A DNA stretch of 64,000 nt from Citrus sinensis (Eukaryota; Streptophyta; Magnoliopsida; Sapindales; Rutaceae). The translations under genes and the position numbers were made by a program. Position 1 is the first letter of the stretch. Every line of letters begins with the position of its first letter. Positions 32,951 through 64,000 of the stretch are shown here, in pieces. The notes below the pieces were generated by a model. That model was not told the DNA's origin. It made no database searches and worked only from the letters and a program-made list of their open reading frames with translations. Where the stretch lies: NCBI RefSeq assembly GCF_022201045.2, contig NC_068561.1, positions 25,054,501 to 25,118,500 on the forward strand, read 5' to 3'.

Positions 32951-32969
32951 ATATATTTAATCACACATC

Positions 32970-34271
32970 TTGAAGAAGAATGTCAAATTCAAAACGATGA
33001 AACATATATTGCACAAAACTGATGAGGCGGATGACTATAAAAAAATTGGATACCGTATTTGTGATTATGCAGATGCGGATGGCAGAACTGATGAGGCAGA
33101 GGACGATAAAAAAGTTGGATTCTGTATTTGTCATGATGCATATGCAAGTGACATAACTAATGAGGCAGAGGACGATAAAAAAGTAGGATTTCGTATTTGT
33201 GATGGTGCCCCTAGCGAGCGTGCGATAAGTGATACTATCGCTAAGCTTCAAACTCTTCTCGACAAACTTCCTAAAGAAGAATGCCAAATTCAAAACGATG
33301 AAACATATATTGCACAAGATATTCCAAGAGAACATGCTTTGAAACTGATTAAGGATTTACGTCAAAATCTAGAGTCTATTGAAAAAGACAGTATCCCATA
33401 TACCTATCGTTCAGTAACTTTCATAACTCATCTGAAGAGATTTTTATATTTTGAGGGCACAACTAAAAATTTGGATAAGGAATCAGAAAGGAGCCATAAC
33501 ATACGATAGTTGCTACCTCAAATTATTCAGTTTCTTGAAGAAGACTTTTATGTTGATATATGGCATTTATTTTACAGTAATAGGACACGGATAAAGACAG
33601 ATTCCAAATTATATTATACAATACATCTCTTATGTTCAATGGTTGGATGTACGAGGGAGAGTTTACATATTATTTCCTCAGAAAAAGGTGTTGTGATTGG
33701 AGATCTCGTACTTCAAATTGGAGGTAAAGAAATTAATTGTGCACCGGACCAACAAAGGATACCTGCTTCCACAGAGAAAAAGAAAGTAGAATGCATAAAG
33801 TCTAATGCAAAATTTGTCTTGTTGATCGAGTAGAAGACCGTGCTCGATATGCTGGAACAAATTAAATTTCATGAGACCTATAATTGCATTCTTCTCACAG
33901 GCTGTGGCATGCCTTATTTGGCCACCAGATTCTTACTAAGAGAAATTAGATTCAAATTAAAAAAATCAGTGCTTGGATCATTCGACTGTAATCCCTATGG
34001 TATTCACATACTTACCGTTTATATGTTTGGCTCAAAAAATATGGTTGGTAGGAATTTAAGACTGGCGGTACCAAATATAAAATGGCTTGGCCTATTTCTC
34101 AGTGACCTTGAAAAATATAACATACCCAAACTATGCCGACAGATTTTGTCTAAAGATGATATATCGAATCTAAAAATATTTTTGGAGAAGGGGGACTTGG
34201 ACATGCATGGATACAAGTATTTGACGAATAAGTACTTACCCTCAAAATTTCGTTCTGGGGATTGGTTATAA
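32970..34271 (+). pseudogene. Intronless Top6A/SPO11-like sequence with two in-frame stops
   Basis: A single reading frame of 434 codons is broken only by TAG at 33507-33509 and TAG at 33831-33833. It matches the topoisomerase VI A subunit/SPO11 family, closest in feel to plant SPO11-3 (TOP6A): LFYSNRTRI, SMVGCTRESLHIISSEKGVV, FVLLIE, GCGMPYLATRFLLREI, FDCNPYGIHILTVYMFGSKN and the DWL end. The family makes double-strand breaks or passes strands with a catalytic Tyr. The Tyr of the FY pair is present, but the Arg before it is not. The Toprim metal motif DxD reads DCN, so the second Asp is lost. A 29-residue deletion precedes the C-terminus. Plant SPO11 genes have many introns; their absence suggests a retrocopy or another origin. 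Confidence 0.78.
33019..33225 (+). repeat. Three 69-bp tandem repeats in the Top6A-like ORF
   Basis: Units start at 33019, 33088 and 33157, each 69 bp (23 codons), beginning CTGATGAGGC or CTAATGAGGC and encoding forms of TDEAEDDKKVGFRICD. They lie N-terminal to the recognisable catalytic domain. A flanking sequence, AAATTCAAAACGATGAAACA, also occurs twice, at about 32985 and 33287. Confidence 0.9.
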
Positions 34272-34348
34272 TGGTGGGCTTTTTTCTTGTATGTTGGTGT
34301 GTGTGTGTATACATACAAGAGGTTGATTTAAGTAGTTAAAACAATAGA

Positions 34349-34521
34349 ATGCATAAAGTCTAATGCAAAATTTATCTTGTTGATCGAGTAGAAGACCGTG
34401 CTCGATATGCTGGAATAAAATAAATTTCATGAGACTTATAATTGCATTCTTCTCACAGGCTGTGGCATGCCTGATTTGGCTATCAGATTCTTACTAAGAG
34501 AAATTAGATGCAAATTAAAAC
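34349..34521 (+). repeat. Third partial Top6A-like copy, direct
   Basis: Repeats about 33790-33960 of the plus-strand copy, including the same TAG after the LLIE codons. It stops where the foldback element begins. Confidence 0.8.
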
Positions 34522-35740
34522 TTCAATTTAAAAAAAAATCTTGTACTTCGACTCTTGTCAAACAATTGACTCTGAGTGAATAGAGGAAGAGTAATTGAGC
34601 AAGCACCAGATCGGTCGAGCTTGAGCTAGCGCACAGATCACCTGTGCTTGTGCCGCTGTTGATCGTTACCGGCGACAAAGATCAGCCGTCGCAGTTAGCG
34701 CACAGATCAGCTGTGCTTGTGCGGCCGTTGATCGTTACTGGAGACGAAGATCATCCGCCGCAGTTGTTCGTTGCCGACTCACACCACCGTTGATGGCTGT
34801 GGAACAAGAAGAGGAGAGGTGAGGTCAACGGAGTGGTCGCATCTGCCGCAGTAGCCATCGGCAGTGGCGTCATCGGAGTACGCGGATTCGCCGCAGTCAA
34901 CGGCGTTGTCGCATTTGTCGGCTCACTGCCTATATGCAAATTAGCAAACTTCCCAGCAATCTTATCATCTGCCATTATTGCTTTTTTAAGTTTGAAAGTA
35001 TTGAGTTCGGTTAGAACTCTATTTATAGGCTGATGCTACAATACCTGAGTGTATGAGATACATGGATTAAAAATCACCATTGGATTAAATAGAGTGAGTC
35101 TAACGGTTGCGATTCGTTTCATTATTAAATAATAAAAAAATTTGAGGGAATTGAAAACCTGTCAAACCGGTTATGCTTTTGGTTTGGCTGATGCTACAAT
35201 ACCTGCATGTATGAGATACATGGATTAAAAATCACCATTGGATTAAATAGAGTGAGTCTAATGGTTGCGATCCGTTTCGTTATTAAATAATAAAAAAATA
35301 TGAGGGAATTGAAAACTTGTCAAACCGGTTATGCTTTTGGTTTAGGTTAAAAATATATAAATGAAAAAAAAAAAAACACTCCCTCACCTCACACCCTCAC
35401 CTCACGCACGCCTCACCATTCTCTCACCTCACCTCTCCTCTTCTTGTTCCACGGCCATCAACGGTGGTGTGAGTCGGCAACGATCAACTGCGGCGGATGA
35501 TCTTCATCTCCGGTAACGATCAACGGCCGCACAAGCACAGCTGATCTGTGCGCTAACTGCGGCGGCTGATCTTCGTCTCTGGTAACGATCAACGGCGGCA
35601 CAAGCATAGGTGATCTGCGCGCTAGCTCAAGCTTGGCCGATCTGGTGCTTGCTCGATTACTCTTCCTCTATTTACTCAGAGTCAATTGTTTGACAAGAGT
35701 CGAAGTACAAGGTTTTTTTTTTAAATTGAAGTTTTAATTT
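34512..35740. mobile_element. Foldback-type element with ~300-bp terminal inverted repeats
   Basis: Left arm 34512-34825 and right arm 35426-35740 are imperfect reverse complements, running from AAATTAAAACTTCAATTTAA inward to GGAACAAGAAGAGGAGAGGT. Each arm holds GC-rich subrepeats such as GCGCACAGATCA and GTTGATCGTTAC. The middle carries a GC-rich stretch (34830-34930) and two direct 158-bp repeats at 35028-35185 and 35186-35344. No transposase is present. A clear direct target duplication was not found. It abuts the broken end of a Top6A-like fragment, which fits insertion there. Confidence 0.72.
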
Positions 35741-39583: not shown

Positions 39584-42500
39584 GAATTAACTTGCAACCT
39601 TGAAAATCATTTAATTAATAGACCAATAAACATGAAACCATGACCATTAACTTGCTACCTAAACCATTAAACTTGAAACCAGTGAACTTGAAACTTAGGG
39701 CAATAAACGTGAAACATAAGATCATTAACTTGCAACCATGAAAATTATTTAATTAATGAACTTGAAACTTAGGGCAATAAACATGAAACATGAGATCATT
39801 AACTTGCAACCTTCAAAATTATATGATTAATGTACCAATAAATATGAAATCATGACCATTAACGTGATATCTAAACCAATAAAATTGAAACCAATAAACT
39901 TGAAACATAAGGCAATAAACCTGAAATATGAGATCATTAACTTGCAACCATAAAAATGGTTAAATTAATGAACTTGAAACTTAGGGCAATGAACATGAAA
40001 CATCTTATTATTAACTTGCAACCCGAAAAATTATATAATTAATGGACCAATAAACATGAAACCATGACCATTAACTTGCAAGCTAAACCATTAAACTTGA
40101 AACTAGTGAACTTGAAACTTAGGGCAATAAACGTGAAACATAAGATTATTAACTTGCAACCATGAAAATTATTTAATTAATGAACTTGAAACTTAGGGCA
40201 ATAAACATGAAACATGAGATCATTAACTTGCAACCATGAAAATTATTTAATTAATGAACTTAAACCATTAAACTTGAAACTAGTGAACTTGAAACTTAGG
40301 GCAATAAACGTGAAACATAAGATTATTAACTTGCAACCATGAAAATTATTTAATTAATAAACTTGAAACTTAGGGCAATTAACATAAACATGAGATCAAT
40401 AACTTGCAACCTTCAAAATTATATGATTAATGGACCAATAAATATGAAATCGTGACCACTAACGTGATACCTAAACCAATAAAATTGAAACCAGTAAACT
40501 TGAAACTTAGGACAATAAACGTGAAACATAAAATCATTAACTTGCAACCATAAAAATTATTTAATTAATGAACTTGAAACTTAGGGCAATGAACATGAAA
40601 CATGAGATCATTAACTTGCAACCTTCAAAATTATATGATTAATGGACCAATAAACATGAAATCATGATCATTAATGAAACATAAGATCATTAACTTGCAA
40701 CCATAAAAATTATTTAATTAATGAACTTGAAACTTAGGGCAATGAACATGAAACATGAGATCATTAACTTGCAACCTTCAAAATTATATGATTAATGGAC
40801 CAATAAACATGAAATCATGACCATTAACGTGGTACCTAAACCAATAAACTTAAAACCAGTGAACTTGAAACTTAAGATAATAAACCTGAAATATGAGATC
40901 ATTAACTTGCAACCATAAAAATGGTTAAATTAATGAACTTGAAACTTAGGGTAATGAACATGAAATATCGGATCATTAACTTGCAACCTTCAAAATTATA
41001 TAATTAATGGACCAATAAACATGAAATCATGATCATTAACATGATACCTAAACCAATAAACTTGAAACCAGTGAACTTGAAACTTAAGGTAATAAACCTG
41101 AAATATGAGATCATTAACTTGCAACCATAAAAATGATTAAATTAATGAACTTGAAATTTTGGGCAATGAACATGAAACATCTGATCATTAACTTGCAACC
41201 TTCAAAATTATATAATTAATGGACCAATAAACATGAAATCATGACCATTAACGTGATACCTAAACCAATAAACTTGAAACCAGTAAACTTGAAACTTAAG
41301 ACAATAAACCTGAAATATGAGATCATTAACTTACAACCGTAAAAATGATTAAATTAATGAACTTGAAACTTAGGGCAATAAACATGAAACATCTGATCAT
41401 TAACTTGCAACCCCAAAAATTATGTAATTAATGGACCAATAAACATGAAATCATGACCATTAATGTGATACCTAAACCAATAAACTTGAAACCAGTAAAC
41501 TTGAAACTTAAGGTAATAAACGTAAAATATGAGATCATTAACTTGCAACCATAAAAATGGTTAAATTAATGAACTTGAAACTTAGGGTAATGAACATGAA
41601 ATATCGGATCATTAACTTGCAACCTTCAAAATTATATAATTAATGGACCAATAAACATGAAATCATGACCATTAACGTGATACCTAAACCAATAAACTTG
41701 AAACCAGTGAACTTGAAACTTAAGGCAATAATCCTAAAATATGAGATCATTAACTTGCAACCATAAAAATGATTAAATTAATGAACTTGAAACTTAGGGC
41801 AATGAACATGAAACATATGATTATTAACTTGCAACTCAAAAAATTATATAATTAATGGACCAATAAACTTGAAACCAGTGAACTTGAAACTTAAGGTAAT
41901 AAACCTAAAATATGAGATCATTAACTTGCAACCATAAAAATGGTTAAATTAATGAACTTGAAACTTAGGGTAATGAACATGAAATATCGGATCATTAACT
42001 TGCAACCTTCAAAATTATATAATTAATGGACCAATAAACATAAAATCATGACCATTAACGTGATACCTAAACCAATAAACTTAAAATTAGTGAACTTGAA
42101 ACTTAAGGCAATAAACTTGAAATATGAGATCATTAACTTGCAACCATAAAAATGATTAAATTAATGAACTTGAAACTTAGGGTAATGAACATGAAACATA
42201 TGATCATTAACTTACAACCAAAAAAATTATATAATTAATGGACCAATAAACATGAAATCATGACCATTAATGTGATATCTAAACCAATAAACTTGAAATT
42301 TAAGGCAATAAACTTTAAATATGAAATCATTAACTTGCAACCATAAAAATGATTAAATTAATGAACTTGAAACTTAGGGTAATGAACATGAAATATCCGA
42401 TCATTAACTTGCAACCTTCAAAATTATATAATTAATGGACCAATAAACATGAAATCATGACCATTAACGTGATACCTAAACCAATAAACTTGAAACTAGT

Positions 42501-44460
42501 GAACTTGAAACTTAAGGCAATAAACTTGAAATATGAGATCATTAACTTGCAACCATAAAAATGATTAAATTAATGAACTTGAAACTTAGGGCAATGAACA
42601 TGAAACATATGATCATTGACTTGCAACCCAAAAAAGTACATAATTAATGGACCAATAAACATGAAATCATGACCACTAATGTGATATCTAAACCAATAAA
42701 CTTGAAACCAGAGAACTTGAAATTTAAGGCAATAAACTTGAAATATGAAATCATTAACTTGCAACCATAAAAATGATTAAATTAATGAACTTGAAACTTA
42801 GGGCAATAAACATGAAACATCTGATCATTAACTTGTAACCGAAAAAATTATGTAATTAATGGACCAATAAACATGAAATCATGACCATTAACGTGATACC
42901 TAAACCAATAAACTTGAAACTAGTGAACTTGAAACTTAAGGCAATAATCCTAAAATATGAGATCATTAACTTGCAACCATAAAAATGATTAAATTAATGA
43001 ACTTGAAACTTAGGGCAATGAACATGAAACATATGATTATTAACTTGCAACTCAAAAAATTATATAATTAATGGACCAATAAACATGAAATCATGACCAT
43101 TAACGTGATATCTAAACCAATAAACTTGAAACCAGTGAACTTGAAACTTAAGGTAATAAACCTAAAATATGAGATCATTAACTTGCAACCATAAAAATGG
43201 TTAAATTAATGAACTTGAAACTTAGGGTAATGAACATGAAATATCGGATCATTAACTTGCAACCTTCAAAATTATATAATTAATGGATCAATAAACATAA
43301 AATCATGACCATTAACGTGATACCTAAACCAATAAACTTAAAATTAGTGAACTTGAAACTTAAGGCAATAAACTTGAAATATGAGATCATTAACTTGCAA
43401 CCATAAAAATGATTAAATTAATGAACTTGAAACTTAGGGCAATAAACATGAAACATATGATCATTAACTTACAACCAAAAAAATTATATAATTAATGGAC
43501 CAATAAACATAAAATCATGACCATTAATGTGATATCTAAACCAATAAACTTGAAATTTAAGGCAATAAACTTTAAATATGAAATCATTAACTTGCAACCA
43601 TAAAAATGATTAAATTAATGAACTTGAAACTTAGGGTAATGAACATGAAATATCCGATCATTAACTTGCAACCTTCAAAATTATATAATTAATGGACCAA
43701 TAAACATGAAATCATGACCATTAACGTGATACCTAAACCAATAAACTTGAAACTAGTGAACTTGAAACTTAAGGCAATAAACTTGAAATATGAGATCATT
43801 AACTTGCAACCATAAAAATGATTAAATTAATGAACTTGAAACTTAGGGCAATGAACATGAAACATATGATCATTGACTTGCAACCCAAAAAAGTACATAA
43901 TTAATGGACCAATAAACATGAAATCATGACCACTAATGTGATATCTAAACCAATAAACTTGAAACCAGTGAACTTGAAATTTAAGGCAATAAACTTGAAA
44001 TATGAAATCATTAACTTGCAACCATAAAAATGATTAAATTAATGAACTTGAAACTTAGGGCAATAAACATGAAACATCTGATCATTAACTTGTAACCGAA
44101 AAAATTATGTAATTAATGGATCAATAAACATGAAATCATGACCATTAACGTGATACCTAAATCAATAAACTTGAAACCAGTAGACTTGAAACTTAAGGCA
44201 ATAAACCTGAAATATGAGATCATTAACTTGCAACCATGAAAATTATTTAATTAATGGACCAATAAACATGAAATCATAACCATTAACTTAATACCCGAAC
44301 CATTAAACATGAAACCAAAGGAACATGAAACGGAGGGCAATAAACATGAAATATGTTATCATTAACTTGCAACCATGAAAATCATTAAATTAATAGACCA
44401 ATAAACATAAAACCGTAACCATTAAATTGATACATTGACCATTAAACTTGAAACTCCTTT
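39584..44460. repeat. 4.9-kb satellite-like tandem array, 212-bp period
   Basis: The array is built from ~21-24-bp words such as AATAAACTTGAAACC and CATTAACTTGCAACC, arranged in a 212-bp higher-order unit (TTAACTTGCAACCATAAAAA-type starts at 41114, 41326 and 41538). A still larger duplication of 1,257 bp is visible, for example 42570-42764 against 43827-44021. The left edge is more irregular than the centre. The array has no coding potential beyond chance ORFs repeated with the unit. Confidence 0.95.
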
Positions 44461-47380: not shown

Positions 47381-48016
47381 ATGGAGTTGATAAGGTTGAG
47401 CTTGATTTTTTACTTCTTCCTTGCCACCTTGGTTCCATGCCTCTTGGCCCATATGGCCGACTCCAATGAAGCGTTGTGGCGACGAGCATAAGAAGCCATA
47501 AATGCCACCAATGAAGCCTAAAATCCTGAAGTAGTGATTAATTACTATAAAATGCATGTTTAAAAGTAAGCTCAATATCTTTAAGACGTTATTTTATTTT
47601 TTATTTTAAAACATATAGTGCTAACTTCTAGAGCACATGCTAAGAAAAAATTTTATGACCCCAATTTTTAGAATAAAATTTTGTTACATTATGTTGCAAC
47701 TCGTAGATTTTTAGGAGGGAACATTATAAGGAGGAAATTGTTGAGGCATGAAAAACACAATGGACCGCGCGTTGCAACAAACCTAATAGTCTGGTGCTGG
47801 CGGTGTCAAAATGACTGGGCCAACAACCGCCATAAACTGGCCGATTGCACGCTTAGTTTCGGTAAACATGCCACCGGTGGAAAGCATGGACCTATTTATA
47901 TGGTGACTGATAGTTCTGATAACCAATGTGATCATAAAAACCTTAAACTAGGGACTTTACGCCTCGTTGTGACCCAGAAGGGACCTTTGTGGATCATCTT
48001 TGAACGTAATATAAGT

Positions 48017-48669
48017 ATAAAGTTAAGGGCGACATTAGGTATAGGCGAATTAGGTAATCGCCTAAGGTCCTATATGTTGGAAATTCCTCATTGTGGCCAT
48101 CAAGTCCTTATATGTTAGAAGACCCCTTCTTTTGTATTTTTTTATATATTTAAATTAATATTTTAAAACTTACTTATGATAAGAAAGCCTATTTTTAGGC
48201 TTTTTTTAATTGATAATTATTTTACAATTAAGTCTTTTTTACACAAATTTTATATTTGATAACCTTAACATTAAAGAGCTGTAAAATTAAGTCATTATTA
48301 GGTTTTTCAAGAAAAATATTAAAAAAATCTGTATCTATTAAAAAAATCAAGATTATTTAATATTATAAAATTTCTTGCACTTTTCTCTTTAAAGAAAACT
48401 ATTGCATTTATTGGCTCACTTTTGAAGGAAAAAAAATAGTTTCTTGAAATAATAGTCTAAGGGAATTAAAAAAAAATTCTTAATTACTTTTTTTTTTAAT
48501 TTCTTACCATCTTATTGGTTGTCGATATTCAATATGTAATTAAAAATTGATTACATTTTAAGCCTTTTTTATGTTTCTTTGAGTGTTAAAACTACTAAAT
48601 ATAAGCAGGCCTCATAAAAATAGTTCGCCTAAAGCCTTTAGTACTCTAGAGCTGGCCTTGCATAAAGTT
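48017..48669. mobile_element. hAT-like MITE inserted in the pectate lyase pseudogene
   Basis: The insert 48025-48661 is flanked by the 8-bp direct repeat ATAAAGTT at 48017-48024 and 48662-48669, the duplication size of hAT elements. Its ends AAGGGCGAC and GGCCTTGC are short imperfect inverted repeats. The pectate lyase reading resumes on the other side. There is no coding capacity. Confidence 0.72.
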
Positions 48670-49292
48670 GTCAAAAATGCTTCAAATGATAGGCAATAAG
48701 ACCATCGATGGTCGCGGAGTGGATGTACATAATGCACATGGAGGTGGAATTGGTACACATCAAGTGAAAAATGTGATCATTCATGAACTTCATATTCATA
48801 ATATTGTTCATGTTCATGGAAGTGGCGATGGAGATGGGATTTCAATATATGGTTCATCAAATATTTAGGTTGACCATGTTTCAATATCCGAATGCCACAA
48901 TGGGCTCATTAATGCTACTCAAGGATCTATTGCCATCACCATTTCAAACAGCCACTTCATCAAGCATGATAAGATAATTAATTAATTAATCTTTATAGCA
49001 TAATTATAGTTTTATATTCTAGTCTTTTTAAAATTGTACAATTTTAGTGCCTTTTCATGATAAGCTCTAAATACGACCTGAATAGGTAGTACTAAACTGT
49101 AGTAGGGAAACTATATGAATAATCTAATTTTAATTAAGCTAAATTATAGGTTAACAATAAAAAGATTATTTATTCAAGTTGTAGGCGTGCTTTAATTTTA
49201 TAGGTGATACTGCTAAGTGCAAGCGATACTTTTGAGGAAGATAAAAAGATGCAAATGAGAATCACATATAACCATTTTGATAAGGAATTGAT

Positions 49293-49742
49293 TTATGGTG
49301 TGTTTACTTCATGGAATGGGGAATGTGAATGAAACTCATGTTTACTTGGCAAAATATAATTTGAGAATGGGAATAAAATTTGTGGGTCCCACACAATTTG
49401 GGAATAAGGAATGGGAATCCCATTCTCATGGGGGGGTTGGGAATGAAAATGAGGGAGAGGGAATGAGAATGAAATATGTGTTTACTTTTGTATCCCTCTA
49501 ATTTTTTCATATTTCCCAAATTACCCTCATTCAAATCTCATTCAAATCACAATTACTTTTATTATTTTAAATGCCATTAATAATAATAATAATTATTATT
49601 ATTAAATTTTATTAAATTTATTATTTTAGTTATTATTAATTATTTTTATTAATATTATCATTATTAACAATAAAAATAATGATAAAAAATAATTAATTTA
49701 TCATTATTAACAATATTATCATTATTGTTGTTGTTGTTGTTG

Positions 49743-49788
<46 letters not shown>

Positions 49789-50582
49789 AAATAATAATAA
49801 CAATAATTAATAATAACTAAAATAATAAAGTTAATAAAATTTAATAAGAATAATAATAATGTAATTTTCATTATCTAGATATAAAAATGATATTAATTAA
49901 AAATAATAATAATAAATGTTAATAATGATAATATTAATAAAAATAATAATAATAAATGTTAATAATGATAATATTAATAAAAATAATAATAAAAATAATT
50001 AATAGTAACTAAAATAATAAAGTTAATAAAATTTAATAATCATAATAATAATAATAAATTTTAATAATGATAATATTAATAAAAATAATAATAACAATAA
50101 TTAATAATAACTAAAATAATAAAGTTATTAAAATTTAATAATAATAAATGTTAATAATGATAATATTAATAAAATAATATTAACAATAATTAATAACAAC
50201 TAAAATAATAAAATTAATAAAATTTAATAATAATAATATAATAGTAATAATAATAATAATAACAACAACAATAATGATAATATTGTTAATAATGATAAAT
50301 TAATTATTTTTATTAATTATTGATGTTATGGTATTTTGGTAAATTGATTCTCATTCCCTTTCTTCATTCCCATTTATTTTGTTAAATAAACACATCAATG
50401 ACATTCCAGCACATTCTCATTTCTATTTATTTTTGCTAAGTAAACATTGAAATCTCATTCCCATTCCTCATTTTCATTCCAGCTCATTCATATTCCCAGC
50501 CCATTCTCATTCCAGCCCATTTCTATTCCCAGTTCATTCTCATTCCACCATATTCTCATTCGTTGAAGTAAACGCACCATTA
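49293..50582. mobile_element. PIF/Harbinger-like element inserted in the pectate lyase pseudogene
   Basis: The insert 49296-50579 has ends TGGTGTGTTTACTTC and GAAGTAAACGCACCA, which are inverted repeats with one mismatch, and a TTA duplication at 49293-49295 and 50580-50582. TTA/TAA target duplications are typical of PIF/Harbinger and Tourist elements. Subterminal zones are rich in GGGAATGNGAATG-type repeats in opposite orientations. The middle (49560-50330) is nearly pure A/T with (TTA)n/(TAA)n and a TTG run, itself made of inverted and direct repeats. No transposase is present. Confidence 0.8.
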
Positions 50583-50949
50583 AAGAATACCATGCATCAT
50601 ATTTGACTTCGTTCATGTTATGAACAATGATCACACTCATTGGAAAATATATGCACTTGGTGACCTCAAAAACCAATAATTATTAGCCAGGGTAACAAGT
50701 TCATTGCTTTATACAATGATTATGCCAAACAGGTGACAATGAGAGATGCTAGCTCTAAATATGATGAAATACAAAGATCAGAGGGAGATATTCGACAATG
50801 GGGCTTTCTTTAATCAATCTGGTGACCCAAGTTGGAAGATATTATTCCATATTGAGAATGAGACGATTAAAGCGAAGCTAAGAGCATATGTTGAATGGTT
50901 CATTCGCTTTGTTGGTGCACTTAAATGCTCTCTTGTGAAAGAGTGCTAG

Positions 50950-51578: not shown

Positions 51579-52881
51579 CAAGATGTTGTGAAAAATTTTA
51601 ATATACTCGCAAACACACGAATCTAGAAATAGAATAGTGGTAACGATGTCGAACCCACAAAGATTGTTATAAATTGAAAAGTCTAAATTAAATCTAAAAT
51701 TAATATTAATCCTAACCTAGTTGAGCAATTTGAATTTTTAAGAGAATAAAAATAATTAAATTAAGAAAAAAATTAAAGCAAATGAGAAATCAATAAGACA
51801 AAATTTACCAAGGTTTCGAAATCCATCACTATTCAACTATTAATTATCTAATTATTAATTAATCCTCAAATTTAGAGTGACAACTCGAAATCAATCTATA
51901 TCATCTCATAAATATAACAATTAAACCCAATTAAAATTATTCTTGTGTAGGTTTCTTTTTCCGCTTAACAGTATGATATCTAAGCATCCCATGTAAACAT
52001 ATTAAATAACAAAAAGTCAAAGTTTTCTTAAGCGCTCTGCGTAAACAATTTAATGAAAGACACAGAATCAAAGATAATCATATATAAACTTTATAGACCC
52101 AAGCATAGATTTAATCGAATATTAATCCTAACAATTAATAATACATGACAGAATTGGTGAAAAGATTTAATAACATCCAACTAATCATGTGAAATAAGAA
52201 CCATAAATATTAAAGCGCACATGTAGCGAATTAATTAAATAAAAAGATAATTATTTCATTAAATAGGGTTTCATCCTTAACCGTAGTATAAGAAAATTAG
52301 TTAGACATACTTGAATTGGGAGCTACAAAAGAAATAAAATCAACCCTAGAAATATTTAACTGCTGCAGCCTTCATTTTCTTCTCTGCCGAATTGCGTCTG
52401 CACTATTTTTTTCTTCCTGGCGGCTGCCCTTCTTTCAAAAGCCAAAGGCTTGCTTATATAGTCTTCAAAATGGGCCTCACCTTGTCAATTCTAAAGCCGA
52501 AAGGCTTTGCATTTTATTTGTTTTGCTTCACTCACGTGCTGGGCACTTAGAATTGCAATATGATTCCTTTTTTCCATTTATGAAACCCAAGTACGGGTCC
52601 CTTTTTAAAGCTAAAATCAATTTCTCTCATTTGTCTGCATGTGCATGATGAATTAACTTGTTGAATTCAGTTCCTTGGCTTGATTTCCACATGCATGTAT
52701 GTCTAATTGCTTCCAAAAATCAATTAATCTTTAATGCTTCCAAAATTAAGCTCTTTTATGCCCTTTTTATCCATAATCTCAAAGTAATTCCCTATTCAAT
52801 AAAAAAAATAAGAAATAAAAATAACTAATAAATATATAATAAAAGGGTAAAATATGTATACAAATTATGTTCATCACAAGA
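51579..52881 (-). mobile_element. Solo gypsy LTR
   Basis: The LTR is 51584-52876 (1,293 bp), beginning TGTTGTGAAAAATTTT and ending GTTCATCA on the plus strand. It is flanked by the 5-bp duplication CAAGA at 51579-51583 and 52877-52881. The minus-strand orientation is inferred from the second copy, where the primer-binding site adjoins the 59304 end. No internal sequence is present on either side, so this is a solo LTR left by LTR-LTR recombination. It sits about 0.67 kb upstream of the pectate lyase ATG. Confidence 0.88.
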
Positions 52882-55800
52882 TAAGTAAAACTCCTAAAAT
52901 CACTTCTCCCTAGATCCAAACTCCTTCTAGTAACCTCACTTCTTCCATTCTTTCTAAAGCTCCACGGAAAGTAAAAACATGCAATACACCTCGATTACGA
53001 ATTTATTATGTTTAGCTAGGTTTCTTACCTTGCCCAAAATTTAGTTAAAACGACACATTCTTTTTTTTTTATAAAAAATGAGAATAGGCAGCCATAATTA
53101 AGTTCATGGCTTAGTCGTTAGATTACTATTTTTGTGGGCATAATAAATTGGTCATTTGGAAGAGCGTTTAGAATAAGAATAAATATTTTAGTATTTTTTT
53201 TTACTTTAAATTACAATACAAAGCATTGCATTTTTTATTTTTTATTTAAAGTTTGACTAATTCTGTGATTTATTAAATCCTAATAATTCTAATAATAATG
53301 ATATTGAGATTTATTCGTCCAATTAAATAGGATCTTAATTACTGTGTTATACTACAACCGTGAAGTGAATTTGGCTCTCCTCTTTCTGCGCAGCAATAAG
53401 AACTTAGAGCCATAAATTTTTTTTCTCAAAATCAATATATAAACACATGATCCACATTGCATCAAATCACAAGCAAAAAGTTCAATCCTACATACCTCGA
53501 ACTTTTGTACATTAGAATAAAACATTTGAAAAAGAAAGTAAAAATGGAGCTAGCTAGGCTAAAATTAATCTTTCTTTTCTCTTTTATCATTTTGATCCCT
53601 TGCCTATCGGCTATCGCCGAGGCCGACGAGGTATGGAGGCGACGAGCTGAAGAAGCCATGCAGACCACTGAGCAGTACTATGATCCTGACCCTGTAGCTG
53701 TTGCCAGCAACTTGAACATGAAAGTTCAGGAGTATGTGAATAACAATACTAATACTAAAAACCCGTACCTGTCGGCATTAGCATGTTTCAAAATATAGAT
53801 TTTAAACTAGATTATTCTATTTAATTTTAATTTAAAAAGGTGAAAAACGTTAGCAATAAAATATAATACATCCTATTAATGTTTTAAAGTTAGATATATA
53901 TGGATATGAAATTTATAGAAATTTTTTATGGGTTGCAGCTTGTCAAAGCAGACTGCTGCCAGAAGGGGCTTGTTGAATGCAGAATCAGGGCAATGTGAGG
54001 CAACAAACCCAATTGACAAATGTTGGCGTTGCAAAGAGAACTGGGCAGAAGATCGGCAGGCGCTAGCAGGTTGCGCGCTTGGTTTCGGCAGTAAAGCTAC
54101 CGGAGGAAAAGGTGGAAAAATTTATGAGGTGACTGATTCTTCTGACAATAATATGGAGAACCCTAAGGTTGGTACTTTACGCCATGCAGTGATCCAAAAA
54201 GAACCTTTATGGATCATCTTTGCCAAGGACATGAACATCAAGTTGCAACAAGAATTGGTTGTCCAGGGTAACAAGACCATTGATGGGCGTGGAGCCAATG
54301 TACACATTGCCAATGGAGCTGGAATTAGGCTACAGTTTGTGCAAAATGTCATCATTCATGGGATTCATATTCATAACATTTCTCCTGCCAGTGGTGGTAT
54401 GATTAGGGATTCTGTGGATCATGTGGGAAATAGAGGTCCAAGTGATGGGGACGCTGTTTCAGTATTTGGTTCGTCAAATATTTGGCTTGATCATCTTACA
54501 TTATCTAAAGCCCAAGATGGGCTCATTGATGCCATTCAAGGATCTACAGCCATCACCATTTCAAACTGCCACCTCTCAAACCATGACAAGGTGACTATAA
54601 TTTAATTAAATGTTGACTTTACATGACGTAGCTCAGGTCATCATCAAACGTAAATTCAAACTTTTGATCTATTATAAGCCATGTTGTGCTATAAAATTTT
54701 GCAGGCAATTTTGCTAGGTGCAACCGATACGTTCACGGAAGATAAAAAGATGCAAGTGACTGTAGCATTCAACCGCTTTGATAAGGGATTGGTGCAAAGA
54801 ATGCCATGCATCAGATTTGGTTTCGCTCATGTTGTGAACAATGATTACAATCAATGGGAAATGTATGCAATTGGTGGTCTCAAAGGCCCCACCATTCTTA
54901 GCCAGGGTAATAGGTTCTTTGCCTCAGATAACAAGAATGCCAAAGAGGTAATGTATTTTCTACAAGAGACAAGGTCCTTTATTGATTAGAGTTCACTTAA
55001 TGTATAAACAATATTTTTCAATAAACGTACAAAAGACATAAAGTTCGTATCTAAAGAGAATCCAGGCTGCGCACGTAATGAATTAATCTTTATTATTTAT
55101 TTGCATGCAGGTGACAAAGAGAATGGACTGCAGCCCTGAAGAAGGGAATGGTTGGATATGGAGATCAGAGGGAGATGTATTCTTGAATGGGGCTTACTTC
55201 AATGCATCCGGTGACCCGAAAAAGCAAATCAAATACGAACTGAATGATGTGATTAAACCAGCGCCAGGAACAGAAGTTCAGAGGATCACAAAATTTGCTG
55301 GGGCACTTGTCTGCAAGCCAGGCCAGCAATGTTAATTTACTAGATTTTTGGCATTGATAGAGAAACAGTGACCTAGCCATAGCCTAAGGCTAGCTCACTG
55401 CTATTGGTTAAAAATGATGGCCAAAATATTAGACAGAAAATTGGGACGGAAAATGAGAGGAGGAAGAAAATAAATGAATAGTAATCCTCTCATTTAGTCC
55501 AATTTTTTCATGGATTTGGTTAGTTTCTATAACCATATCCAACATTAAGGCTTTTTTTTTGTCCAATGCAATCAATCAACGTGTTTGATGTGCTTATTCA
55601 TAATGGTAACCGTGTTTCTTTATTGGATGTACAAAATTAATAAATTTTTTCATTATTTAATAGTTAATCATTACCATTGATAATTAATTTGTTTGTTTAA
55701 TTAATTACTTTGTGAGTGCTACTTCTTTTCATTAGGGAAAATTTTATAATACCGTGATTAAAATTACAGCATGAATGTCATGATAAACATAAATTTTGTA

Positions 55801-56280
55801 AATTATATATAAAACCTAGTAAATAGAAAGGAAAAGACGTAAACTAATATAAAAGTGGTAAATTGATGTTTTAAAATTACAAACACTTGTAAGAATATTA
55901 TAAAACTTGTAAATCAACATTAAAGTAAAACAACATTAAACAAAAAATAGTTTATCAATTTGATTTAATTAAAGAAAAGCCACTCCTCAATTGAAAATAA
56001 AAAAATTGTTATGAAAACAATTGGAATAAGTTTTATTGAATTTGTCTAACCATAATTTCGGTATTCATTTTACAAATACATAATTTTTTTAATTTTTATC
56101 ATAGTTTTTTTCTTAATTTTCTATCATAGTATTGTTCACTACATACGTTAATTAAGCAAAATTATTTTTATGTGGATTAAGCTAAAAAAGAAGAACGTAT
56201 TCTTATGTTACTAGACATATATGATATATTAATAAAATTGGATTTGATTTTATGTTTTATACATACTTCATATAATTTCA
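51584..56280 (+). repeat. Tandem segmental duplication, first unit (visible paired part)
   Basis: Every position matches position +7,720 to the end of the window. From about 51905 rightward the two copies differ at only a handful of bases (for example near 52268, 52327, 55482 and 55543). The first ~315 bp differ at about 20 positions. Confidence 0.95.
53544..55335 (+). CDS. Pectate lyase (pollen-type, Amb a 1/LAT59-like), copy A
   Basis: Exons 53544-53764, 53939-54590, 54705-54947 and 55111-55335 join in frame to 446 residues, the normal family size. A signal peptide ([20 protein letters not shown]...) precedes the N-terminal pectate lyase domain with [19 protein letters not shown]. The beta-helix core has [15 protein letters not shown], the calcium-site Asp residues in [19 protein letters not shown] and [19 protein letters not shown], and the catalytic region [17 protein letters not shown]. 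There the Arg residues of the R-x-P-x-x-R motif are kept, but the usual second Arg is Cys. Pectate lyases cleave de-esterified pectin in cell walls by beta-elimination. Resemblance of the C-terminus to pollen allergen-type lyases suggests pollen or style use, which is inference. It encodes the same protein as copy B. Confidence 0.95.
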
Positions 56281-57289
56281 ATTTTTCATTTTTTACTTGT
56301 ACTTAAAGATCATTTGGAATTACTGTCGGGGGCTTTTGGAAAGATACAAAATACCTTATCTTACAAACAACCTTGAAAACACGAAAATAATAGTTTTTCG
56401 AAATCCTATTTTGAGAATAAGTTTTATCCTTCATAATATTTTATGTACATCATCACATGTTTTACCTCAACTTAAACTATCATGTTCAATTTAGAAACAA
56501 AATTAGAAAATTTATAAGAAAATCATAATTAAAAAAGGGTTTTTATTTTACATTTGTAAGTTTTTATTTTTTCAATAATTCTTATACTAATCTACTTATT
56601 TTACCTTTTATTTACAATCCTTATATTTCATTTACGCAATTAATGTTTTGGTTTACACTTATTGTTGATTTACATGTTTTATATTATATTTTTTTATGTT
56701 AATTTACCATTCCTATGTTAATTTTTTTTTACCTTTTATTCAAAAGTTCTATGTTCCATTTTGCAAAATTTATGTTTTATTTTATTCTTAATATTGATTA
56801 CAAGATTTATATTATATTTTTATTTTTTAATTATTTGTTTACAATTAATATACTATTTTATCACTCTTATGTTAATTTACTTCTTTTTTGCTTTCATTTA
56901 CAAGTTTTATATTCTAATTAACAATCTATATTTTATCTTACACTTATTATCTGTTTGCAAGTTTTATATTGCATTTGTAAGTTTTTGTTTTGTTTACCAA
57001 TAATACACCAATTTACCACCCTATGTTAATTTACTTATTTACCCTCCATTTACAAATATTACGTCTTCTTTACATAATTTATGTTTTATTTTACACTTAA
57101 CATTGATTATAAGTTTTATGTTAAATTTATAATTTTTTATTTTTTTACTAATAATACGTTAATTTACCATTTCTATATTAATTTATTTGTTTTACCTCTC
57201 ATTTATAAAAGAAAAATACTAGAAAAGAAAAACAAATAATGAAAAAGAAACCTACTATTAAAATAAAACAAGAATGCAAAGATGGACTT
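55336..57289. repeat. AT-rich flank with a diverged tandem repeat
   Basis: Downstream of copy A. From about 56540 to 57220 a loose repeat of roughly 200 bp recurs about three times, built around TTAATTTAC, TTTACAAGTTTTATATT and TTTATGTTTTATTTTACACT. No gene was recognised. Confidence 0.6.
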
Positions 57290-57294
57290 AATTA

Positions 57295-57738
57295 ATCCTG
57301 ATAAACAAGATCATCTAAAAGTAGCTCATCGACTTCTGATGTTCTTAACTCTAACAATGGTTGTAATCTCTGACCATTGACTTTAAATAAATCACCATTT
57401 TTTGGATTTTCAATCTCAATTGCTCCATAAGGAAAGACAGTACGAACTATAAAAGGAGCAGACTATCGAGAACGTAACTTACCTGGAAAGAGATGCAATC
57501 GAGAATTATATAAAAGTATTTTATGACCTAGTGTAAAGGATTTTCTTAAAATATGCTTGTCGTGAAATATTTTCATTCGCTGCTTGTAAATCTTGGCATT
57601 CTCATATGCATAATTCATGATCTCTTCAAGTCTTGCTAGTTGTAATCTTCTCTTCGTGCACTCCTTTGGGATTAGAAATTGGTTGACTTGGAAATTTTCT
57701 TTTTCTCTCTCAGCTATCGTAGTTGTTAATTGACTCAA
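57295..57738 (-). pseudogene. Gypsy integrase C-terminal fragment
   Basis: Reads [31 protein letters not shown] and [17 protein letters not shown], then a stop, then VFPYGAIEIENPK and VNGQRLQPLLE. These are the closing blocks of plant gypsy polyproteins. The integrase catalytic core is absent. Confidence 0.85.
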
Positions 57739-58394
57739 TTGATGTTCAACCTTTAAAATTGCTTGAGTGTTCGACTGAAAGGTTTGTTGGGTTGACTGAA
57801 TGAATCTTTGAAGAGTATCCTCTAAAGAAGGTTTTCTTTGTTGAAGTGCGACAAATTAAGACATAAGTTATTCGGTAGAGGGATATACTTGGTTATGAGG
57901 GACAAATTCTTGATTGAGCATGTTAAATTGTTGCCCTCCTTAGTTTGACAAAGGTTGATTTTGTTTCCAAGAAAAATTAGGCGATTCCTCCAATTAGGAT
58001 TATATGTGGATGAATATGGACTATTGAAGGATTTTTCATACGATTGTAGGGCATGTACCTACTCAAAATAAGCCTCTGGATAGGCTAATAATAATGGACA
58101 ATTCTGTGCTGTATGAGATAAGTTAGAACAAAGAGCACAAACCTCATTAGCTACACTAGGATGGTGATTCATTGATTGGTTTAGAGCTAAGGCATCTACT
58201 TTCCTAGAAAGTGTAGTTATAGTGGATTTCACATTAAAATCATCTTTAACTGCATATAATCCCTTTCTAGAAACTTGAGATGATTTTTCCCTTTGATTTG
58301 AAAAATCCCACTGTTGAGAATTTTCAAAAAGTGAATTAAAGAAATCTCATGCAGCCCCTTCATGTAAGTTCAAAAATCTCTCACCATTCATAGA

Positions 58395-58976
58395 TTATAC
58401 CATATGATGATTCGACATGGTTAAACCGTTATAAAAGCATTGTATAAGTCTCCATTTCTCAAAACCATAGTGGGGACACTTGAGGAGTAAATCATTAAAT
58501 CTTTCCCAACACTCATAAAATTGTTCACCATCTCTTTGATAAAAATCACTTATCTCTCTCCTAAGGGCATTTGTTTTAGACATAGAAAAAAACTTGGTGA
58601 GGAACTTGTTACTTAATTCATCCCACGTTATAGACCTAGTAGGAAGTGAATTCAACTAAGCTTTCGCTTTGTCTTTTAATGAGAAAGGGAACATGCGAAG
58701 CTTAATTGACTCATCATTAAAATTTTGAAAACGACATGTAGAGCATCTGTCAAGAAATTCCTTAATGTGCAAATATGGGTCCTCTCTCTCTAGCCCATGG
58801 AAAGATGGTAAAAGCTGAATGACAGAGGGCTTACGTTCAAAGTGTGTTGTTGTAGTTTGTGGCAACACAATATAAGATGGTTGGTTGGCTGCAAGTGGTG
58901 AAAAATATTCTCTAAGGGTTTTCTCGGCTTGCACTAGTGGAAGTATTGGCAATAGTGTATTTGGGTCATCCATCAC
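58395..58976 (-). pseudogene. Gypsy gag-derived fragment
   Basis: Two abutting reading frames separated by one stop near 58656 encode a retrotransposon gag (capsid-type) domain with LPSFHGLEREDPYLHIKEFL, FPFSLKDKAKA, and LPTRSITWDELSNKFLTKFF, followed by FYECWERFNDLLLKCPHYGF. No intact zinc knuckle was seen downstream. Confidence 0.85.
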
Positions 58977-59282
58977 TTCTGAATAACTAGCTCGACTCCT
59001 ATCAATTTTTTACTCTCCTTTGACCAAGCGATTTGTTGAATCGCGTTCCCAAACACTCATAAACTAACTAGACAAAGAAGAAAAATTAAACAACAATAAT
59101 AAAAATAAACAAAATTTAAAATAAAAGAAATCAAACAACCAAACAATGAATTCAAAGAAAATATTAACTAATTTTTTTGTGTTTTTTATAAAAAATTAAA
59201 TAAATAAAATAAAAGACAACCTAAATTATAACTAGTAGAAGAATCAAATCAACCTAGATTAAACTGATTTTCTAGCACAATC

Positions 59283-59303
59283 CTCGGCAACAGCGCAAAA
59301 ACT
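59283..59303 (-). other. Retrotransposon primer-binding site, decayed
   Basis: On the minus strand the LTR end ...TTTTCACAACA is followed by AGTTTTTGCGCTGTTGCCGA. This resembles the TGGCGCCGTTGCCGGGGA motif common beside plant gypsy LTRs, with a few changes. Confidence 0.6.
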
Positions 59304-60596
59304 TGTTGTGAAAAATTTTAATATACTCGCAACCGCACGAATCTAGAGATAGAATAGTGGTAACGAGGTCAAACCCACAGGGATTGTTGTAAATTGAAAA
59401 GTCTAATTTAAATCTAAAATTAATATTAATCCTAACCTAGTTGAGCAATTTGAATTTTTAAGAGAATAAAAATAATTAAACTAAGAAAACAATTAAAGCA
59501 AATGAGAAATCAATAAGAAAAAATTTACTAAGGTTTCGGAATCCACCACTATTCAACTAGTAATTATCTAATTATTAATTAATCTCCAAATTTAGAGTGA
59601 CAACTCGAAATCAATCTATGTTATCTCATAAATATAACAATTAAACCCAATTAAAATTATTCTTGTGTAGGTTTCTTTTTCCGCTTAACAGTATGATATC
59701 TAAGCATCCCATGTAAACATATTAAATAACAAAAAGTCAAAGTTTTCTTAAGCGCTCTGCGTAAACAATTTAATGAAAGACACAGAATCAAAGATAATCA
59801 TATATAAACTTTATAGACCCAAGCATAGATTTAATCGAATATTAATCCTAACAATTAATAATACATGACAGAATTGGTGAAAAGATTTAATAACATCCAA
59901 CTAATCATGTGAAATAAGAACCATAAATATTAAAGCGCACATGTAGCGAATTAATTAAATAAAAAGATAATTATTTCATTGAATAGGGTTTCATCCTTAA
60001 CCGTAGTATAAGAAAATTAGTTAGACATACTTGAATTGGGAGCTACGAAAGAAATAAAATCAACCCTAGAAATATTTAACTGCTGCAGCCTTCATTTTCT
60101 TCTCTGCCGAATTGCGTCTGCACTATTTTTTTCTTCCTGGCGGCTGCCCTTCTTTCAAAAGCCAAAGGCTTGCTTATATAGTCTTCAAAATGGGCCTCAC
60201 CTTGTCAATTCTAAAGCCGAAAGGCTTTGCATTTTATTTGTTTTGCTTCACTCACGTGCTGGGCACTTAGAATTGCAATATGATTCCTTTTTTCCATTTA
60301 TGAAACCCAAGTACGGGTCCCTTTTTAAAGCTAAAATCAATTTCTCTCATTTGTCTGCATGTGCATGATGAATTAACTTGTTGAATTCAGTTCCTTGGCT
60401 TGATTTCCACATGCATGTATGTCTAATTGCTTCCAAAAATCAATTAATCTTTAATGCTTCCAAAATTAAGCTCTTTTATGCCCTTTTTATCCATAATCTC
60501 AAAGTAATTCCCTATTCAATAAAAAAAATAAGAAATAAAAATAACTAATAAATATATAATAAAAGGGTAAAATATGTATACAAATTATGTTCATCA
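59304..60596 (-). mobile_element. Gypsy LTR, second copy, joined to internal sequence
   Basis: Same 1,293 bp as the solo LTR at 51584. The low side adjoins the primer-binding site and gag remnant, so this is a 5' LTR in minus orientation. The high side is followed by CAAGATAAG, the flank of the solo LTR. It has a CAAGA only on one side. The first ~315 bp differ from the solo LTR at about 20 sites, while the rest differs at about two. Confidence 0.9.
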
Positions 60597-61263
60597 CAAG
60601 ATAAGTAAAACTCCTAAAATCACTTCTCCCTAGATCCAAACTCCTTCTAGTAACCTCACTTCTTCCATTCTTTCTAAAGCTCCACGGAAAGTAAAAACAT
60701 GCAATACACCTCGATTACGAATTTATTATGTTTAGCTAGGTTTCTTACCTTGCCCAAAATTTAGTTAAAACGACACATTCTTTTTTTTTTATAAAAAATG
60801 AGAATAGGCAGCCATAATTAAGTTCATGGCTTAGTCGTTAGATTACTATTTTTGTGGGCATAATAAATTGGTCATTTGGAAGAGCGTTTAGAATAAGAAT
60901 AAATATTTTAGTATTTTTTTTTACTTTAAATTACAATACAAAGCATTGCATTTTTTATTTTTTATTTAAAGTTTGACTAATTCTGTGATTTATTAAATCC
61001 TAATAATTCTAATAATAATGATATTGAGATTTATTCGTCCAATTAAATAGGATCTTAATTACTGTGTTATACTACAACCGTGAAGTGAATTTGGCTCTCC
61101 TCTTTCTGCGCAGCAATAAGAACTTAGAGCCATAAATTTTTTTTCTCAAAATCAATATATAAACACATGATCCACATTGCATCAAATCACAAGCAAAAAG
61201 TTCAATCCTACATACCTCGAACTTTTGTACATTAGAATAAAACATTTGAAAAAGAAAGTAAAA

Positions 61264-63055
61264 ATGGAGCTAGCTAGGCTAAAATTAATCTTTCTTTTCT
61301 CTTTTATCATTTTGATCCCTTGCCTATCGGCTATCGCCGAGGCCGACGAGGTATGGAGGCGACGAGCTGAAGAAGCCATGCAGACCACTGAGCAGTACTA
61401 TGATCCTGACCCTGTAGCTGTTGCCAGCAACTTGAACATGAAAGTTCAGGAGTATGTGAATAACAATACTAATACTAAAAACCCGTACCTGTCGGCATTA
61501 GCATGTTTCAAAATATAGATTTTAAACTAGATTATTCTATTTAATTTTAATTTAAAAAGGTGAAAAACGTTAGCAATAAAATATAATACATCCTATTAAT
61601 GTTTTAAAGTTAGATATATATGGATATGAAATTTATAGAAATTTTTTATGGGTTGCAGCTTGTCAAAGCAGACTGCTGCCAGAAGGGGCTTGTTGAATGC
61701 AGAATCAGGGCAATGTGAGGCAACAAACCCAATTGACAAATGTTGGCGTTGCAAAGAGAACTGGGCAGAAGATCGGCAGGCGCTAGCAGGTTGCGCGCTT
61801 GGTTTCGGCAGTAAAGCTACCGGAGGAAAAGGTGGAAAAATTTATGAGGTGACTGATTCTTCTGACAATAATATGGAGAACCCTAAGGTTGGTACTTTAC
61901 GCCATGCAGTGATCCAAAAAGAACCTTTATGGATCATCTTTGCCAAGGACATGAACATCAAGTTGCAACAAGAATTGGTTGTCCAGGGTAACAAGACCAT
62001 TGATGGGCGTGGAGCCAATGTACACATTGCCAATGGAGCTGGAATTAGGCTACAGTTTGTGCAAAATGTCATCATTCATGGGATTCATATTCATAACATT
62101 TCTCCTGCCAGTGGTGGTATGATTAGGGATTCTGTGGATCATGTGGGAAATAGAGGTCCAAGTGATGGGGACGCTGTTTCAGTATTTGGTTCGTCAAATA
62201 TTTGGCTTGATCATCTTACATTATCTAAAGCCCAAGATGGGCTCATTGATGCCATTCAAGGATCTACAGCCATCACCATTTCAAACTGCCACCTCTCAAA
62301 CCATGACAAGGTGACTATAATTTAATTAAATGTTGACTTTACATGACGTAGCTCAGGTCATCATCAAACGTAAATTCAAACTTTTGATCTATTATAAGCC
62401 ATGTTGTGCTATAAAATTTTGCAGGCAATTTTGCTAGGTGCAACCGATACGTTCACGGAAGATAAAAAGATGCAAGTGACTGTAGCATTCAACCGCTTTG
62501 ATAAGGGATTGGTGCAAAGAATGCCATGCATCAGATTTGGTTTCGCTCATGTTGTGAACAATGATTACAATCAATGGGAAATGTATGCAATTGGTGGTCT
62601 CAAAGGCCCCACCATTCTTAGCCAGGGTAATAGGTTCTTTGCCTCAGATAACAAGAATGCCAAAGAGGTAATGTATTTTCTACAAGAGACAAGGTCCTTT
62701 ATTGATTAGAGTTCACTTAATGTATAAACAATATTTTTCAATAAACGTACAAAAGACATAAAGTTCGTATCTAAAGAGAATCCAGGCTGCGCACGTAATG
62801 AATTAATCTTTATTATTTATTTGCATGCAGGTGACAAAGAGAATGGACTGCAGCCCTGAAGAAGGGAATGGTTGGATATGGAGATCAGAGGGAGATGTAT
62901 TCTTGAATGGGGCTTACTTCAATGCATCCGGTGACCCGAAAAAGCAAATCAAATACGAACTGAATGATGTGATTAAACCAGCGCCAGGAACAGAAGTTCA
63001 GAGGATCACAAAATTTGCTGGGGCACTTGTCTGCAAGCCAGGCCAGCAATGTTAA
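61264..63055 (+). CDS. Pectate lyase (pollen-type), copy B
   Basis: Exons 61264-61484, 61659-62310, 62425-62667 and 62831-63055, each at +7,720 from copy A, encode the same 446-residue secreted pectate lyase with the same Arg-to-Cys change in the QRMPCIR motif. Splice sites, 5' flank up to and including the LTR, and 3' flank are nearly unchanged, so the copy presumably has the same regulation. The only large difference in context is upstream of the LTR: gypsy internal remnants here, unrelated spacer at copy A. Recent origin is inferred from the lack of coding differences. Confidence 0.95.
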
Positions 63056-64000
63056 TTTACTAGATTTTTGGCATTGATAGAGAAACAGTGACCTAGCCAT
63101 AGCCTAAGGCTAGCTCACTGCTATTGGTTAAAAATGATGGCCAAAATATTAGACAGAAAATTGGGACGGAAAATGAGAGGAGGAAGAAAATAAATGAATA
63201 GTCATCCTCTCATTTAGTCCAATTTTTTCATGGATTTGGTTAGTTTCTATAACCATATCCAGCATTAAGGCTTTTTTTTTGTCCAATGCAATCAATCAAC
63301 GTGTTTGATGTGCTTATTCATAATGGTAACCGTGTTTCTTTATTGGATGTACAAAATTAATAAATTTTTTCATTATTTAATAGTTAATCATTACCATTGA
63401 TAATTAATTTGTTTGTTTAATTAATTACTTTGTGAGTGCTACTTCTTTTCATTAGGGAAAATTTTATAATACCGTGATTAAAATTACAGCATGAATGTCA
63501 TGATAAACATAAATTTTGTAAATTATATATAAAACCTAGTAAATAGAAAGGAAAAGACGTAAACTAATATAAAAGTGGTAAATTGATGTTTTAAAATTAC
63601 AAACACTTGTAAGAATATTATAAAACTTGTAAATCAACATTAAAGTAAAACAACATTAAACAAAAAATAGTTTATCAATTTGATTTAATTAAAGAAAAGC
63701 CACTCCTCAATTGAAAATAAAAAAATTGTTATGAAAACAATTGGAATAAGTTTTATTGAATTTGTCTAACCATAATTTCGGTATTCATTTTACAAATACA
63801 TAATTTTTTTAATTTTTATCATAGTTTTTTTCTTAATTTTCTATCATAGTATTGTTCACTACATACGTTAATTAAGCAAAATTATTTTTATGTGGATTAA
63901 GCTAAAAAAGAAGAACGTATTCTTATGTTACTAGACATATATGATATATTAATAAAATTGGATTTGATTTTATGTTTTATACATACTTCATATAATTTCA

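Follow-up and report, generated by a model that had tools for sequence, protein, structure and literature searches.

How does one plant gene come to stand in a row of nearly identical copies, and how far can the DNA between the copies tell which event began the row? This question is raised by a 64,000-nucleotide stretch of Citrus sinensis (hereafter the window, C6:25054501-25118500), the right end of which carries a pectate lyase gene beside a long terminal repeat (LTR) of a gypsy retroelement. When the genome, which comprises 299.7 Mb in 11 contigs, is searched and the fetched stretches are compared, this gene proves to belong to an array of five units in direct orientation, U1 to U5, at C6:25106079-25146201; their count and order are given as in this assembly. 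We propose, with a probability of about 0.68, that the array would have arisen by recombination between the solo LTR A and a second LTR, here termed C, that it then grew and was homogenised by exchange, and that its gypsy-free right end stems from a chromosome that lacked the gypsy insertion.

The initial annotation, made from the window alone, had described a 7,720-bp unit present twice. Comparison of the window with itself indeed yields a single long direct repeat, 51584-56280 against 59304-64000, which is gapless and has an offset of 7,720 and an identity of 99.49%. The two-unit picture arose because U3 to U5 lie outside the window. When the first 1,001 bases of LTR A were used as a query, five consecutive copies of the unit start were recovered on C6 at 98-100% identity, the remaining 35 of the 40 scored places lying outside the array at 83-90%. 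Every unit contains a pectate lyase gene, in which the same four frames are open, together with a gypsy LTR, and all four internal joints fall inside homologous LTRs of directly oriented units. The annotated start of the unit at an LTR end is near the mark; the true start is the target duplication at 51579, from which unit positions are counted here, and the LTR itself runs from 51584.

The anatomy of the LTRs bears directly on how the units were joined. LTR A has the TG...CA ends and the 5-bp target duplication by which an LTR insertion is recognised, and CAAGA can be read on both of its sides, as annotated. No gypsy internal sequence adjoins this solo LTR, and its strand is assigned from the gypsy remnant beside LTR B. 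LTR B, at the start of U2, is bordered by gypsy sequence to the left and, to the right, by the flank that also follows LTR A, again in agreement with the annotation; its left part is unlike LTR A, and its right part matches LTR A together with the flank. Gypsy sequence on the left and the LTR A flank on the right are found in four out of four downstream LTRs, and because of this arrangement the LTRs of U2 to U5 are best read as recombinants of LTR A and LTR C. The C/A joint is plain from the anatomy. A second gypsy remnant had been predicted near window position 65010-67020, and it is present at C6:25119436-25121522, the equivalent of 64936-67022. In its first 337 bp, the LTR that follows this remnant is identical to LTR B, as foreseen, but its remaining part, for which divergence had been expected, is also the same as in B, so that it represents another recombinant and not LTR C. 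In fact, the LTRs of U2 and U3 show no difference in unit 6-324 and none in unit 325-1298.

LTR A and LTR B differ at 22 of 1,293 sites, and the uneven placement noticed at annotation (about 20 in the first ~315 bp and about two afterwards) is borne out, with 20 differences in LTR positions 1-319 (all within 30-319) and two in 320-1293, at 678 and 744. A two-rate change-point model is favoured over a single rate by a doubled log-likelihood difference (2dlnL) of 44.6, a value reached by none of 20,000 random placements of the 22 sites (largest 23.1), which speaks for a clear step and against an even spread. The LTR of U4 lacks the difference at site 319, and with that site omitted the step lies at 317 (range 283-352, 2dlnL 42.2); in unit numbering, the U4 LTR differs from the other three downstream LTRs at 192, 324 and 481. 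When the 20 left-part sites are compared with ten outgroup LTRs from loci of the same family (L006-L008, L032-L038), the rarer base is found in A at 11 and in B at 7, two sites being ambiguous. Both left parts therefore carry private changes, and two independently aged LTRs contributed to them.

Beyond the LTRs, the units are strikingly uniform. U1 and U4 show no difference over unit 1299-7720, the same interval has 6 differing sites and a single 1-bp gap between U1 and U2, and the gene region of U3 is nearly identical to that of U1. Since U1 equals both U4 and U5 over unit 1299-4567, it either exchanged sequence with them or was copied very recently. More diverged tracts adjoin breaks in homology, namely positions 1-319 of LTR A, unit 4568-5631 of U5 and the surroundings of a 3.6-kb stretch specific to U3, and this is the trace that exchange between units would be expected to leave. 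A test of shared variants provided three informative sites, one pair of which displays all four combinations (the four-gamete test) and gives a slight hint of inter-unit exchange. Unequal recombination is discussed in general terms for resistance-gene clusters (PMC13392006).

The gypsy remnant between the units lacks its far end and its other LTR. Retrotrans_gag (PF03732) was matched on 58398-58655 (E 4.4e-15), one of three window pieces submitted to Pfam; the integrase-end piece 57295-57462 and the gag piece 58659-59009 gave no match. The integrase end and the primer-binding region are putative readings, and the placement in the gypsy superfamily is likewise our assumption, the matched domain names occurring in other retroelements too. 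An Athila/Tat lineage and a tRNA primer may be presumed. A tRNA scan of the window gave no lead. Relatives elsewhere in the genome have 79-92% identity among the matches listed, and the frames of the gypsy pieces inspected are interrupted by stops.

U3 retains about 3.6 kb that the remnants of U1, U2 and U4 do not have. At the corresponding joint these three units jump from the integrase end to gag, and genomic relatives match each side separately, whereas the additional sequence of U3 contains RVT_1, RT_RNaseH and Integrase_H2C2 in all three pieces tried, each searched separately in Pfam. Because the extra sequence consists of pol pieces at the integrase-end/gag joint, U1, U2 and U4 carry a shared deletion. 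A new insertion into U3 with a 3-bp target duplication was considered and rejected, as pol pieces at the point of the jump mark a deletion in the other units. The gypsy sequences of U3 and U1 differ at 22 sites, 6 to the left and 16 to the right of the 3.6 kb, and by a 33-bp gap. In the comparison of all units, from which unit 6074-6796 of U3 is absent because pieces shorter than 900 bases were dropped, 16 gypsy differences between U1 and U3 are counted in place of these 22.

The right end of the array adds a further element to this history. An AT-rich dispersed tandem-repeat element (TR) follows the gene and recurs in at least about 30 further genomic places, mostly at 71-78% identity and on both strands, with repeats of ~128-152 bp (periods 128 and 152). 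In U1 to U4 the TR stops at unit 5631, where gypsy begins; in U5 it continues for ~85 bp and is then followed by a flank, Y, with neither gypsy nor LTR at the end. The initial annotation had envisaged a single event giving two units, but the array has five, the last of which possesses an uninterrupted TR in place of gypsy and LTR C. Nine TR loci already collected, a non-random sample, were compared across the insertion point: the TR of U5 aligns through it in the expected orientation in eight, four of the alignments exceeding 1.2 kb, and the ninth (L045) gives a weak reverse match. With U1-type sequence no alignment passes 57230, and 42 end at 57195-57230. Since the TR crosses the insertion point in U5 and in eight of nine loci, U5 represents the gypsy-free, or empty, site. 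A TR that ends naturally at the gypsy start was rejected, as the matches had stopped with the end of the query and U5 and the eight loci run on. The pectate lyase loci at C6:12.82 Mb and C4:21.77 Mb have a TR, then a relative of Y after 1.0 and 0.35 kb, respectively, and then pectate lyase, and a third relative, which matches Y in part, is found at C6:25149388-25150476, shortly beyond the right end of the array. Because the same order recurs at these two other loci, the arrangement of TR and Y is probably older than the gypsy join. Compared with U1, U5 has no substitution in unit 1299-4567 and then 27 in the 1,064 positions of 4568-5631.

Together, these observations suggest the following course of events. 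At the outset, a pectate lyase gene would have stood to the right of the solo LTR A, and a second, related gypsy element, bordered on the right by its own LTR C, would have inserted in minus orientation into the TR that closely follows the gene. C would then have mispaired with A in a homologous recombination that brought the gypsy remnant next to the sequence on the right of LTR A, and the product would have been a directly repeated unit of chimeric LTR, gene, TR and gypsy remnant. Unequal exchange and conversion between units, to which their near-identity points, may have brought the array to five and homogenised it. One gypsy copy presumably lost ~3.6 kb, and the deleted version is now found in U1, U2 and U4. 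The gypsy-free right end might ultimately derive from a chromosome that lacked the insertion, by way of an exchange in the gene or TR, either at the founding or later. We tentatively go one step further and consider that the array may have been born between alleles that differed in the gypsy insertion, LTR to LTR, later exchange having spread one version of the gene up to the breaks in homology. If this were true, the mispairing behind the multiplication of the adjacent gene would have been due to the polymorphic insertion itself. In any case, the locus preserves several steps of a multiplication side by side: the solo LTR still has its target duplication, the downstream LTRs are chimeric, one gypsy copy is less deleted than the others, and the far end shows an empty site.

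Several observations weigh against this proposal. LTR C, the downstream parent required by the annotated LTR-to-LTR recombination, was not found in the genome search, although the joining of gypsy remnant and solo flank stands; nor was the right neighbour of gypsy found in such searches. Among the 40 places scored in each search, the closest match outside the array to the first 337 bp of LTR B has 93% identity, and matches to the gypsy remnant do not exceed 92%; the search with the remnant did not list the split remnant of U3, so that a similarly broken copy elsewhere could escape it. Nor does the array have the second parental LTR at its right end, where U5 stops without gypsy or LTR, possibly through loss or because a different allele is involved. 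The TR is itself tandem, and alignments across the insertion point are thus less specific than they would be in unique DNA. Recurrent mutation could also generate the four-gamete pair. Furthermore, if a founding event between diverged alleles were the whole story, the gene of U5 should itself be diverged; it is not, and at least one additional exchange must be assumed.

The place of the founding crossover is a question apart from the overall reading. The initial annotation had located this crossover at the A/B step; the step is not uniquely readable in this manner, because positions 1-319 of LTR A, which escaped homogenisation, are situated at the margin of the array, where later conversion tracts would end too, and U1 was exchanged or recently copied. 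Conversion tracts are most often 100-1000 bp long in a survey of plant LTR elements (PMC7251063), and a step at 319-352 can therefore mark the limit of a conversion tract as well as a crossover point. That it is a mere boundary, the crossover having occurred elsewhere in the 1.3-kb LTR and its mosaic having been erased by later conversion, has a considerable, if less than even, chance; the identity of U1 and U4 outside the LTR and the diverged tracts at the start of LTR A, at the right end of U5 and around the 3.6-kb heterology of U3 all fit it, yet one crossover at 319-352 accounts for the same LTR pattern. This alternative is compatible with the overall reading and concerns the crossover place only. 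The simple form of the original view, in which a single unequal crossover produced two units and survives as the A/B step, draws on the sharpness of that step, on the chimeric LTR and on the second gypsy remnant at its predicted place; it is contradicted by the five units, by an LTR behind the second remnant that is not diverged past unit 324 and by an empty site where gypsy and LTR C should stand, and we regard it as highly improbable. Whatever its cause, the step carries a warning: where an array has been homogenised, an abrupt change of LTR divergence at its margin is not enough to locate the founding crossover.

The main rival to a second allele as source of the gypsy-free right end is an older tandem duplicate. 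Here, the gene and LTR A would already have been in tandem by another route, gypsy would have entered the TR of the left copy, and C would have recombined with the LTR of the next copy, deleting the DNA between them; the gypsy-free last unit and the 2.5% TR divergence between U5 and U1 would therefore be explained without a second allele. Pectate lyase remains on both sides of the array, and the order TR, Y and lyase at two more loci, indicate that the cluster had duplicated before. This route nevertheless needs an earlier tandem copy that includes LTR A and its CAAGA flank, not one of the four joints is gypsy-free, and the gene regions are nearly identical across all units, so that we hold it to be unlikely. 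Least probable of all is an assembly artefact that multiplied one unit: the identity of U1 and U4 over more than 6 kb could be so explained, but private substitutions between the units, the 3.6-kb difference and 33-bp gap of U3, the distinct LTR of U4 and the distinct end of U5 argue strongly against it. The coordinates of the features are collected in Table 1.

Table 1. Features of the pectate lyase array and its first two units; positions refer to the window unless preceded by C6.
Feature	Position	Strand	Remarks
CAAGA target-site duplication	51579-51583 and 52877-52881		left and right of LTR A; read directly
LTR A	51584-52876	minus	solo gypsy LTR, TG...CA, 1,293 bp; left array edge (U1)
A/B divergence step	51902-51935 (in B 59622-59655)		change-point analysis; best at LTR 319; LTR 319-352 within 2 lnL units
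Pectate lyase copy 1	53544-55335	plus	predicted exon frames ~53544-53798, 53928-54605, 54705-54989, 55111-55335; boundaries approximate
TR (U1)	55737-57208		AT-rich dispersed tandem-repeat element; right end cut by gypsy remnant
Gypsy remnant	57209-59303	minus	read as integrase C-terminal end, then gag, then degenerate primer-binding region beside LTR
Joint of ~3.6-kb internal deletion	57652-57654		common to U1, U2, U4; stretch kept in U3
LTR B (U2)	59304-60596	minus	chimeric; degenerate gypsy start on left, right flank of LTR A on right
Pectate lyase copy 2	61264-63055	plus	same open frames as copy 1
TR (U2)	63457-64000		continues past window edge
U1	C6:25106079-25113798		7,720 bp; complete in window
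U2	ends C6:25121517		7,719 bp in chromosome; first 4,702 bp inside window
U3	ends C6:25132848		~3.6 kb longer than other units
U4	ends C6:25140568
U5	C6:25140574-25146201		similarity to other units ends at unit position 5631

In the multiplied gene, frame 1 matches Pec_lyase_N (PF04431, E 9.2e-13), frames 2 and 3 match the pectate lyase core (PF00544, E 1.5e-10 and 6.4e-07), and frame 4 has no Pfam match. The closest solved relative by sequence is Jun a 1 from cedar pollen (1pxz), to which frame 2 corresponds with an E of 1.6e-56. Frame 3 holds an R-x-P-x-x-R stretch, a candidate motif of the presumed enzyme activity. All four open frames are present in all five units, with a single amino-acid change, R to K, in U3. 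A fivefold dosage of one pectate lyase is likely to result, and the array predicts variation in pectate lyase copy number between accessions.

Pectate lyase remains flank the array on both sides. Upstream, at 47381-50946, lies a possibly decayed relative with 35-62% identity by stretch, the third exon of which is split by a long AT-rich TAA-type repeat at 49592-50298. The downstream remains (C6:25147532-25151382, L011 and L012) include several N-terminal starts and overlapping frames and are probably decayed. The amplified gene thus seems to lie between relatives that are less well preserved than itself. Elsewhere in the window, an AT-rich tandem repeat of ~4.9 kb occupies 39586-44454 (period 212 bp, inner periods 74 and 138), and 32401-35740 contains several repeats, inverted as well as direct, which are 150-315 bp long and 94-98% identical.

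None of the titles and abstract openings that a literature search brought up names this locus, a result of low weight since most subscription journals lay outside its reach. The multiplication of genes by mispaired mobile-element repeats is a mechanism already known, of which this array is a well-preserved and clean example. Unequal homologous recombination between the LTRs of two elements is held responsible for many plant solo LTRs. The citrus array resembles such events in its joint within the LTR, in a chimeric product with the flanks of two insertions and in a solo LTR with target duplication; it differs in that a host gene between the LTRs was multiplied, that the parental second LTR was not found and that the array is homogenised. 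The gene itself resembles other plant pectate lyases with an N-terminal Pec_lyase_N, such as Jun a 1, in domains and sequence, but here five near-identical copies stand in tandem, with gypsy LTRs linking them. A close parallel is offered by Cyp6g1 and the Accord element of Drosophila, with tandem gene copies, each with an upstream LTR, and one breakpoint beside the LTR (PMC2891717), just as the citrus copies each have an LTR upstream and breakpoints at it; the term "unequal" is absent from that text. Unlike the Accord LTR, an enhancer of known effect, the citrus LTR lies antisense, ~670 bp upstream of the predicted start of the gene.

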